Of a DNA stretch of 64,000 nucleotides, positions 15,712-24,063 are shown piece by piece. Position numbers and translations under genes: made by a program. How positions within the stretch are numbered: the first letter of the stretch is position 1; every line of letters begins with the position of its first letter. The DNA is from Thermococcus aggregans. Its GTDB lineage: Archaea > Methanobacteriota_B > Thermococci > Thermococcales > Thermococcaceae. The notes under the pieces were generated by a model, which ran no database searches, was not told the DNA's origin, and saw only the letters and a list, made by a program, of their open reading frames with translations. The stretch covers positions 1,601,054 through 1,665,053 of the forward strand of contig NZ_CP099582.1 in NCBI RefSeq assembly GCF_024022995.1. Direction: 5' to 3'.

Positions 15712-16734
15712 GTGGTGAAGAGATTGAAGGCTAAGTATCTTGCACTAACAATCATTGCAGCTTTAATGTTTATGTATCTCATAGCGATTCCCATCTATGC
15801 TCAGCAGGAAGAAAACAGGCCTAAGTATGATTTGATAATAGTTAGAGACGATGATTTGATAGACTACATTACTGTTCTCCCCTATGCGAATCTTTTAAAA
15901 GTCCCCGTTCTTCCCGTCAATCCCCAAAAACTTGACGAAAAAACATGGGCACAATTATATTCGTATATCCAGATAGGATGGAAAAAAATCTTGATAGTTG
16001 GAAACTCAAATGCAGTTAGCAAGGAGGTTGAGGATGAACTCCTCAAGATGGGGTACAGCGTTACAAGAATAGGTGGGGACGTAAGAACTGAAACAGCGGA
16101 AAAATTAGCCGTTCATTTTTATCCTCAAGGCTCAAAAACGGTAGTCTTAGCAAGTGCTTTGGATTACGGCTCTGCCTTAGCCGCCTCGAGGTTTGCGATG
16201 GAGTATGACCTCCCACTGCTGCTAACTCTAGAAAATGATTTATCTGAACATGCAGTTGCGGGGCTAAAGCATCTACAGCCAGAGCTTGTTGTTCTGGTTG
16301 GAACGGGGTTGAATGAGACGATTGAAGCAAAGTTAAGAAGCATGGGGTATGAAACCTACTGGCTCGGCAAGAACGTAGAGAAGCCACCCGTCTCTCCTCC
16401 AGAAGAGCCATCTCCATATAGGTATTCCCTCATAGGTGCTATAGTATCACTCGCAATTGCAGTGCCCATAACCCTGTATTGGGCAAAGAAGAAATGGTAC
16501 TCCAATAAGATACCGGTAGAAGTGCTGACAGAGAAGGAAAGAATCGTTGTAAAAGCTCTAATAGAGCAGGGAGGGAAAGTAAAGCAAGAAGACCTTCCAG
16601 AACTTACTGGCTATTCGAGACCAACTGTGAGCAGGATAATCCAGGAGCTTGAGAAAAAACAGTTGATTGAAAGAGAAAAAGTTGGCAAAACATTCATTGT
16701 CAAGCTTGTAAAAGAGATAGACCTCAAAGAATAG
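15712..16734 (+). CDS. Membrane-spanning winged-helix regulator with extracellular cell-wall-binding-like domain
   Basis: A 340-residue protein with an N-terminal signal anchor (about 8-30), an exterior region of about 200 residues, a second membrane helix near 238-258 (YSLIGAIVSLAIAVPITLYW) and an interior winged helix-turn-helix (about 268-335; RPTVSRIIQELEKKQLI is the recognition region). The exterior part resembles the cell-wall-binding-repeat-2 fold: VVLASALDYGSALAASRFAM and VVLVGTGLNETIEAKLRSMGY are typical phrases. This is a one-component sensor that would carry an outside signal to DNA at the membrane. The GTG at 15712 is used; the next codon is also GTG. Ligand and targets are unknown. 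Confidence 0.8.
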   Translation: MVKRLKAKYLALTIIAALMFMYLIAIPIYAQQEENRPKYDLIIVRDDDLIDYITVLPYANLLKVPVLPVNPQKLDEKTWAQLYSYIQIGWKKILIVGNSNAVSKEVEDELLKMGYSVTRIGGDVRTETAEKLAVHFYPQGSKTVVLASALDYGSALAASRFAMEYDLPLLLTLENDLSEHAVAGLKHLQPELVVLVGTGLNETIEAKLRSMGYETYWLGKNVEKPPVSPPEEPSPYRYSLIGAIVSLAIAVPITLYWAKKKWYSNKIPVEVLTEKERIVVKALIEQGGKVKQEDLPELTGYSRPTVSRIIQELEKKQLIEREKVGKTFIVKLVKEIDLKE

Positions 16735-19051: not shown

Positions 19052-20563
19052 TCAGCGCATGTATTTCCTTGCAAAGACCGTTAGAAACACGGCCCACATG
19101 AACATTCCAAATATTGCTTCGAGGGAAGCAATAACTCTGCCGATCCCAATAGGGTGGAGATCGCCATATCCAAGGGTTGTCGCAGTCACTACACTAAAAT
19201 ACTCATAGTCGAGAAAACTCCTTAAAGGCACGCCTGGGCTTGTAACGCTTTTCGTGAGATAAAATATTGTTGGAAATACAAGATTGACCATAAATATCCA
19301 GATAAGGATAGGTCTTTTCCAGTCGGTTCCATATTTACATGTCAAATCAGCAAAAAACCACTCAAAAAAGCCCTCTAAAAGGCGAACATAGTGCTTTATT
19401 TTGGTTTTAATCCTGCCAGCAGGGAGGGATGGAAGTCTTATTTTGAGTCCAAGTTTGGGTAAATAGACCATATACCTCCCCATTTTTTGCTTTCTCCTGG
19501 CAAGCATCTCTAGGTAGTAATATTGATCCGCCTTTTCCTTGTCCCCGCTTTTTTCCCACGTGATCCTTGCCATACGGTAAAAGAATTCTTCCATCGTCGG
19601 GTTATTAAAGCTGCATTCCTCCAGAATGACGAATCCTTTTACGTTTAGTTCTGCCAGAAGATTTGGGAGTACGGTCAAGTTCCACGTTGTATCACCGTAA
19701 AATGTAACACCTCTAAAAACCAAATTATTATGAATGGTAGTGTGTACAAATTCAGGAACTTTTAACCTTCCTCCTCTTATTTCTACGTGTCCCAGAACTT
19801 CAAGGTTTTCAAGCTGGAGGACTCCATCAAAGTTTCTGATAAACAGCCTAACCTGCCTCTTAAACCTCGGGCTGGGGTCAAATTCTATATTCTTTATGAG
19901 GAAAATCTTTGCTTTTACATGCTTTCTTGACATCCCGGATAGTGTTATTCCATGTTCCTCCAAAATCTCTTTAAGCAAGGGATACATGGAATTTACTCCT
20001 ATTCTTCTGACGTTTTTGAGGTCTGAAAACTCTATCCTTCCGTATATTGTTTCTTTTTCTCCATATTCCTCTTCACCTGACCTTTCCTGCTTTGCATACT
20101 GAACAGAGTTTATCATCAAGTACCGAACCGTGCTGTTCTTTATGGAAATCGAGTTCTCAAATTTGATGTCAAGAATATTAAATCCAAAGAAGACTGAGTT
20201 TTTTACCCAGATTGTGGCTATAGACGATGCTAAGAGTATAACCCTATCAATTTCGCAGTTGAAAATGGACAGGCCTTTTAATTCGGAATTTTCAACAATA
20301 AGGGTCTTTATTTTCGAATTTTTAAACACAAGAGGCTTGTCACTTTTCAAATTTGAAACTTTGGCTTCATAAAGCTGGACACCTTCAAAATACCTAACTC
20401 CTCGCTCCAGCTTTCTTTTGAAAGCTCTTTCCTTAATTTCTCTTATTCTATCTCCATAAAGCAGTTCGCCCTCCTCAAAAGGGATGTGGAGTGAGCAGTA
20501 TTTCGAGCCTGATAGAGCCTTTGTTTTACACTCTTTCCCATTTTCAAAGACGTACTCGCACAT
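19052..20563 (-). CDS. Two-helix potassium-channel-like protein with large N-terminal repeat domain
   Basis: A 503-residue protein. The C-terminus has a first helix (about 417-437), a pore loop with the potassium selectivity filter TTLGYGD (462-468) and a second helix (about 475-500), as in two-transmembrane K+ channels. The N-terminal 25 residues contain a small Cys/His cluster (CEY, GKECK, KYCSLH) resembling a zinc knuckle. Between lie about 300 residues of short strands with regularly spaced hydrophobic residues (LIVENSELKGLSIFNCEIDRV and similar), suggesting a pentapeptide-like right-handed beta helix. The domain probably gates or localises the channel; that is inference. ATG at 20563. 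Confidence 0.82.
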   Translation of the reverse strand: MCEYVFENGKECKTKALSGSKYCSLHIPFEEGELLYGDRIREIKERAFKRKLERGVRYFEGVQLYEAKVSNLKSDKPLVFKNSKIKTLIVENSELKGLSIFNCEIDRVILLASSIATIWVKNSVFFGFNILDIKFENSISIKNSTVRYLMINSVQYAKQERSGEEEYGEKETIYGRIEFSDLKNVRRIGVNSMYPLLKEILEEHGITLSGMSRKHVKAKIFLIKNIEFDPSPRFKRQVRLFIRNFDGVLQLENLEVLGHVEIRGGRLKVPEFVHTTIHNNLVFRGVTFYGDTTWNLTVLPNLLAELNVKGFVILEECSFNNPTMEEFFYRMARITWEKSGDKEKADQYYYLEMLARRKQKMGRYMVYLPKLGLKIRLPSLPAGRIKTKIKHYVRLLEGFFEWFFADLTCKYGTDWKRPILIWIFMVNLVFPTIFYLTKSVTSPGVPLRSFLDYEYFSVVTATTLGYGDLHPIGIGRVIASLEAIFGMFMWAVFLTVFARKYMR

Positions 20564-20581
20564 ACAGTATCACCGGAAGGA

Positions 20582-22920: not shown

Positions 22921-23445
22921 CTACTCCTCATACCCCTCGCTCTGACCGCTTTTTCCCTCCATTTTTATTACATAGTCCGCTGCATTCTGAAGTGCAATAC
23001 TAAATCCCGGTTCCACCCCTATGACCACGGTTTCCTTACCCTTTCTCTTTGCCTCGTTTATTATGGGGAGGAAGTCCGCATCCCTTGTAGCCAAAGCTAT
23101 TACCTCTATATCGCTGTTGTATATCAACTCCATGGCTTCAATGGCGATTCTTACATCAGTATCTCCGGCAACTATTATGGGCTCAAACCCTTGGTTAACA
23201 ACTGCTTCAATAAGCCCCTGAGGGGCATATTGATTCAGAACAACTTTTGCAACCCTGATTTTTCCAATTTTTTCCAGTGCTTCCTTTATATCTTCAAGCT
23301 TAATCCCGAATTCCTTCCTTAGTATGTTGGGTCCGTCTATTATCAGCCCTATGCTCTTTGATGGAACTTCAACTTTTTCTCGCTTCTCTTTTTCCTTAGG
23401 CTCTCTTTCTTCTCTTCTCAGTATTTTGAAGAATGCTGCTCTCAT
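22921..23445 (-). CDS. NYN-domain protein (LabA/DUF88 type) with complete acidic site
   Basis: A 174-residue protein of the PIN-like NYN superfamily, whose members are metal-dependent RNases. The expected acidic residues are all present: Asp37 in IDGPN, Asp95 and Asp97 in AGDTDVRI, Asp122 and Asp124 in ATRDADFLP. The basic and acidic N-terminal 30 residues are probably disordered. It overlaps the paralogous gene upstream (23396-23947) by 50 bases; both share phrases such as [14 protein letters not shown] and [11 protein letters not shown]. The GGGTGA ribosome binding site precedes the ATG. RNA substrate unknown. Confidence 0.88.
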
Positions 23446-23947
23446 TTACTTCACCCCTTTTAAGAGTTATCACGTAATCCGCAGCATGCTTTAAAGCGGC
23501 ACTAAACCCTGGTTCAATCCCAATTATCGCGGTTTCTTTTCCTTTTTCTTTTGCCTTCAAAATTATCGGAAGAAATTCCGCGTTTCTTGTGGCTAAGGCT
23601 ATAATATCTATATTTGGATTGTATATCTCCCTCATTGCTTCAACGGCCAGTTTTACCCCTGTCTCTCCGGCAACTATTATTGGCTCAAAGCCTTGATTTG
23701 CGACCGCTTCAATGAGCCCCTGAGGGGCGTATTGATTTAGAATAACTCTTGCAACCCTAATATTGCCAAGCTCTTCCAGTGCCGCAACAATGTCCTCAAG
23801 ATGCACATTGAATTCCTTTCTGAGAATATTCGGTCCATCTATAAGGAGGGCGATCTTTTTTCCTCGCTGGATTTTCTTTCTCATCATTGCAATACTCTTG
23901 ACTCCTTCCTTTGTCATGGAGACTATTTTCTCCCAATTACTGGGCAT
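23396..23947 (-). CDS. NYN-domain paralogue with substituted acidic residues
   Basis: A 183-residue paralogue of the neighbouring NYN gene, first in the pair. Over the shared domain the residue numbers coincide: Asp37 is kept (LLIDGPN), but Asp95 becomes Glu, Asp97 becomes Gly, Asp122 becomes Asn and Asp124 becomes Glu. The fold-determining motifs remain intact, so the protein is likely stable but weakly active or inactive as a nuclease, perhaps a regulatory or dimerising partner. ATG 23947 has GGTGAT upstream. The end overlaps the next gene by 50 bases, implying translational coupling. Divergent from the Mrp operon. Confidence 0.85.
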
Positions 23948-24063
23948 CGTTATCACCGCAATATATGAAAAACATGCATGGAAAAATATGTTTCAAAAGT
24001 ATAAAAAACTTAAGGAAACTGCCAGACGAAAGGATTATAATCAATGAAAGTCTAATAAAAAAC

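Follow-up and report, generated by a model that had tools for sequence, protein, structure and literature searches.

The window, by which is meant the whole stretch of 64,000 nucleotides of Thermococcus aggregans DNA analysed here, carries on its reverse strand a gene for a two-transmembrane (2-TM) channel protein, closely followed by a gene for an NAD-kinase-like protein (Table 1). The channel reading frame runs from an ATG at 20563 to a stop codon ending at 19052, exactly as the preliminary description of this DNA had placed it. ParB-like, methyltransferase and adenylate-kinase-like genes make up the rest of the neighbourhood.

Table 1. The channel gene, the parts of its product and the neighbouring gene, in window coordinates (residue numbers refer to the channel protein).
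Feature	Residues	Position	Strand	Basis
Channel gene, 503 aa		19052..20563	-	ORF; Thermococcaceae orthologs with 51-92% identity; dN/dS 0.03-0.07
Shine-Dalgarno-like GGTGAT		20569..20574	-	sequence; 5 nt before the channel ATG
Cys/His knuckle (C2, C12, C23, H26)	1-27	20483..20563	-	conservation and weak profile matches
Two short helices, knuckle to beta-helix	29-53	20405..20479	-	AlphaFold2 models
Degenerate pentapeptide-like right-handed beta-helix	~58-320	19604..20392	-	model, fold matches, periodicity
Helical linker, conserved WEKSGDKEKADxYYYxEMxARRK	322-411	19331..19600	-	models; common to pentapeptide-channel paralogs
YGTDWKR motif, before TM1	411-417	19313..19333	-	conserved in orthologs and paralogs
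Outer helix TM1	416-437	19253..19318	-	model and hydropathy
Pore helix and filter (TTLGYGD, 462-468)	453-468	19160..19207	-	orthologs, Ion_trans_2
Inner helix TM2, very C-terminus	474-502	19058..19144	-	model; almost invariant
NAD-kinase-like gene, 373 aa		17914..19035	-	16 nt downstream of channel; PF01513 E 8.8e-21, PF20143 E 1.8e-14

A conserved gene pair

The channel gene is near-universal, syntenic and mostly single-copy in the Thermococcaceae. A match was found in 49 of the 61 genomes searched (T. aggregans included), and those from Thermococcaceae are mostly full-length orthologs. The dN/dS ratio of 0.03-0.07 holds over the full length and stays comparably low in every domain that allowed an estimate, so that the entire protein is under constraint; the N-terminal 320 residues, which contain invariant positions throughout, give 0.04-0.08. 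The gene is the sole Ion_trans_2 match in the T. aggregans genome. It has been lost naturally in one genome (G030), where the last 19 codons survive (C1:732767-732823) at 4 nt from an intact NAD-kinase-like gene, and its reading frame is broken in G008 (L026) and in the L007 MAG.

The NAD-kinase-like gene is the probable operon partner of the channel, which lies directly upstream of it in about 75 of the 78 genomes holding both. In the first genome set, 30 of 32 genomes have the two side by side in the same orientation, 4-60 nt apart. They are also adjacent in 45 of 46 further genomes, for which the ortholog-type channel match was paired by hand; this figure counts as adjacent one truncated match (G117) that starts at kinase residue 53, the uncorrected count being 44 of 46. 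Conservation of the ParB-like and methyltransferase genes that lie upstream stops at the genus, and the channel/kinase pair has thus outlived the surrounding gene order.

What, then, is this partner? Its product has an invariant FAGGDGTARD motif, and shares the GGDGT core and the PF01513/PF20143 domains with the canonical archaeal NAD kinase, as in Pyrococcus horikoshii (Sakuraba et al., 2005, as cited in PMC4518329). Since a canonical NAD kinase is encoded elsewhere in the genome (G000:C1:546615), to which it aligns weakly and over a short stretch (E 1e-4), the protein encoded next to the channel is a divergent paralog. Two NAD kinase paralogs are also described in Haloferax, their energy source being left undecided (PMC8305020). 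Among solved structures no close relative of the protein was found, the best match being DgkB (E 0.068). Almost all Thermococcaceae and members of sister groups encode the NAD-kinase-like protein. It is also present in archaea that lack an adjoining channel gene, and so has a channel-independent role; conservation of the operon does not by itself imply gating of one product by the other.

Two other loci in the window deserve mention. At 22921-23956 on the reverse strand, two tandem similar genes, the result of a recent-looking duplication, encode small proteins that we take to be NYN-like. At 15712-16734 on the forward strand, a CWB2 (cell-wall-binding repeat 2) region and a membrane segment precede a MarR-type winged helix (DUF7343) at the C-terminus, making the predicted product an odd membrane-tethered regulator.

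Architecture of the channel protein

The pore scores 49.6 bits with Ion_trans_2 (PF07885; E 3.7e-13), for which the cut-off is 22.5, and all 28 orthologs match this family too. The filter T462-T463-L464-G465-Y466-G467-D468 is invariant in 28/28. The model places a pore helix (453-463) between TM1 and TM2, in agreement with hydropathy peaks near residues 428 and 487. Confidence here is lower (56-77, against a mean pLDDT of 81 for the full-length AlphaFold2 model) as expected when a monomer of a presumed tetramer is modelled. Both the tetramer and selectivity for K+ are inferred from the filter. Like KcsA, MthK and Kirbac, with which it aligns in phmmer searches (E 1e-6 to 1e-4), the protein has a 2-TM pore with a TxGYGD-type filter, but its C-terminus bears none of the RCK, Kir or helical-bundle domains. 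It terminates in RKYMR, the last turn of TM2, with no residues beyond, and neither Pfam nor NCBIfam gave a match to RCK (TrkA_N/TrkA_C), cNMP-binding or HTH domains anywhere in the channel. Any gating module must therefore be N-terminal, unlike that of MthK-type channels, and regulation must come via TM1. The YGTDWKR motif just before this helix is probably an interfacial "slide" segment.

Between the N-terminus and the linker lies a long ladder of strands. Modelled alone, residues 1-355 reach a mean pLDDT of 90.6, with regular strands of high confidence from about 58 to 320, except for an acidic loop (160-171) of low confidence. In residues 57-156, the averaged hydrophobicity recurs every 5 and every 10 residues exactly (P = 0.004 each, 1000 shuffles), no other tested period being significant; residues 176-320 show no such periodicity, the register being lost after about 156. 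The window protein reaches 16 bits with Pentapeptide_3, below its cut-off of 27, while 12 of the 28 orthologs match this family weakly and four match Pentapeptide_4 (best E 2.4e-5). VIA-align superposes the domain model on the pentapeptide protein HetL (Z 15.1, rmsd 3.2, 221 residues), yet several three-sided beta-helix enzymes score comparably (up to Z 16.6), values too close to discriminate the beta-helix subtype. The top matches, at Z 15-16.6, might suggest that the domain acts as a pectate lyase, tailspike or polygalacturonase, but this was rejected because they reflect common beta-helix geometry. It is the periodicity, the weak ortholog matches, the pentapeptide paralogs described below, the profile comparison with them and the fold matches that justify the label "degenerate pentapeptide-like": the repeat domain is a degenerate beta-helix, probably descended from pentapeptide repeats. 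HetL, Qnr and MfpA have a right-handed beta-helix as well, but are soluble, carry clear A(D/N)LxX repeats and are at most 10% identical to the channel.

The protein opens with a small module whose pattern, C-x9-C-x10-C-x2-H, has its four Cys/His residues invariant in 28/28 orthologs. The C-C-C-x2-H arrangement begins 40 of 43 family members and did not occur once in 8000 shuffles. zf-C3Hc3H matches all 28 orthologs weakly; for the window channel itself the scores stay below the curated Pfam cut-offs (zf-C3Hc3H 18.4 against 27 bits, zf-TRM13_CCCH 14.3 against 20.9). The invariant Cys/His set suggests that the knuckle probably binds zinc, and this family-wide module is new here.

Much of what the preliminary description had read from the letters is borne out by these results: a pore with the TTLGYGD filter, a knuckle-like N-terminus, the lack of an RCK or cyclic-nucleotide domain, and some 300 residues of repetitive strands. 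Its "short repeats" are indeed repetitive, but are better described as beta-helix coils that drift out of the 5/10 register after about residue 156.

Pentapeptide channels and the resemblance to HalA

The same description had set this domain order apart from that of known archaeal channels. That the order is without precedent is not supported: proteins combining a pentapeptide beta-helix with a 2-TM pore are widespread in archaea, and the best fold match of the full-length model is the bacterial channel HalA, of solved structure. In these and related archaea there are paralogs that join classical pentapeptide repeats, with E values as low as 1.9e-75, to Ion_trans_2, and profile comparison of orthologs with paralogs by hhalign gives E 1.8e-48 over residues 319-503, that is, linker and pore. 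They occur patchily, a genome having between 0 and 7 matches, and their repeat number is hugely variable while linker and pore stay constant. Halorubrum sp. PV6 WP_168654377.1 and the paralogs L047, L049, L056 and L043 have the order of the window channel, with a Cys/His start, repeats, a linker, YG(T/E)xxxR and a C-terminal TLGYG-type pore; the window channel differs in its fixed operon partner and in repeats so decayed that they no longer reach the Pfam pentapeptide threshold. A haloarchaeal plasmid protein of this order is annotated merely as "pentapeptide repeat-containing protein," and a literature search for pentapeptide-channel fusions found none.

Several of these loci are unusual in themselves. 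Two paralogs with very different repeat types lie head to tail in G007, their reading frames almost overlapping (L043:1366-4285, reverse strand); the shorter has the start module of the window protein and matches the HalA model discussed below with E 4.6e-8. A 955-aa frame in G030 (L053:1092-3956, reverse strand) adds beta-propeller-like repeats (VVAGYTxSFG...) to a pentapeptide-plus-channel module. On a plasmid of Haloarcula sp. SYNS111 (L089:2084-3285, forward strand), a pentapeptide protein and a potassium channel protein are annotated side by side, as if the fusion were split. A viral origin was rejected: phage records gave no match, a scan of viral contigs with the paralog profile yielded five loci (IMG/VR L083-L087) with distant relatives of the pentapeptide-channel pore, and PHROG 15350 (494 positions) matches the pore only.

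The top solved match of the full-length model in Foldseek is HalA with oligodeoxyadenylate (PDB 9nyi; E 2.7e-3, probability 1.00), a borderline match between a predicted and a solved structure, with TM scores of 0.29/0.39 and 10% identity. HalA, the channel of the Hailong anti-phage system, is reportedly gated by a DNA oligomer at its N-terminal domain. This crown domain binds oligo-dA, whereas for the window channel there is a resemblance of fold alone. In both proteins an N-terminal regulatory domain (putative here) precedes a 2-TM channel at the C-terminus. They differ in that the window channel has a much longer beta-helix region and no HalB nucleotidyltransferase partner, none adjoining its gene in the window; we know of no Cys/His knuckle in HalA. 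When residues 1-355 are folded alone, HalA is not among the best 50 matches listed, so that the resemblance rests on overall domain order and pore; this absence is not evidence against relatedness. The NCBIfam HalA model (NF051894) gives the window protein 11.6 bits against a cut-off of 250, and matches 18 of 28 orthologs weakly (best E 0.0014). Seven of nine scanned paralogs are matched over linker and pore (E 1.5e-12 to 1e-4), two of these matches already starting in the repeats. Weak matches to TIGR04172 and MapA were dismissed as chance. The window channel is therefore not a HalA. New here are the group of degenerate orthologs, the connection with HalA and the pairing with an NAD kinase paralog.

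Proposed gating from the outer helix

A gating principle different from that of known archaeal channels, as first proposed, is plausible. HalA provides a precedent for an N-terminal domain gating a 2-TM channel from the TM1 side, and by analogy the window channel may work in this way. We lean, with modest confidence, towards a K+ channel whose gating signal is linked to the kinase-like partner and acts through the N-terminal beta-helix. The protein would be a tetrameric, K+-selective 2-TM channel, the sole cytosolic domain of which is the beta-helix with its Cys/His cap. A conserved helical hairpin and the YGTxWxR segment link this domain with the outer helix; opening would thus be controlled from the TM1 side. 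The order is that of HalA, where an N-terminal domain binding a nucleotide ligand gates the pore. The signal would come from, or be sensed with, the adjacent NAD-kinase-like protein: it may be a (di)nucleotide used or made by it, or the kinase-like protein itself binding the beta-helix. The more specific proposal that NADP(H), NAD(H) or another nucleotide product of the enzyme acts on the beta-helix is, taken by itself, unlikely.

Pentapeptide proteins of the MfpA/Qnr type bind protein partners. The beta-helix could accordingly be a docking scaffold, with gating or localisation of the channel left to a protein instead of a small molecule, and its fold matches (HetL, MfpA, AlbG, Qnr) and the regular, period 5/10 face of its first half are what such a scaffold might show; with no protein partner known, and with an oligonucleotide reportedly gating the closest full-length match, we regard this as a serious but minority possibility. 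A housekeeping K+ channel that is constitutive, or gated physically by temperature, pH or K+, with an N-terminal domain that only assembles and stabilises the tetramer, would suit a single Ion_trans_2 protein conserved vertically, mostly in one copy and under strong purifying selection. It is quite unlikely, however, given that the N-terminal 320 residues are constrained like a functional domain and that paralogs vary hugely in repeat number above an unchanged linker and pore, as a sensor slot would. Least probable is a defence effector, a HalA-like channel held shut until virus infection triggers its release, which would kill or arrest the cell: the HalA resemblance in fold and profile and the patchy paralogs speak for it, but the gene is near-universal and syntenic rather than part of a variable island, lacks defence partners, falls far short of the HalA cut-off and has no PADLOC match.

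If a nucleotide bound on the beta-helix, such as a product of the adjacent enzyme, did gate the channel, archaea would have a housekeeping counterpart to the Hailong logic of enzyme plus channel, in which K+ flux is coupled to the nucleotide or redox state of the cell with no need of an RCK domain. Regulation of channels by a beta-helix acting from the N-terminus and outer helix only is barely characterised, HalA being the sole solved relative found here; the Thermococcaceae offer a conserved, presumably thermostable version whose fixed enzyme partner suggests tests. The gating domain of Hailong-type channels may derive from, or share its origin with, ordinary archaeal K+ channels, and the pairing gives a first functional lead for a widespread, uncharacterised archaeal NAD-kinase paralog.
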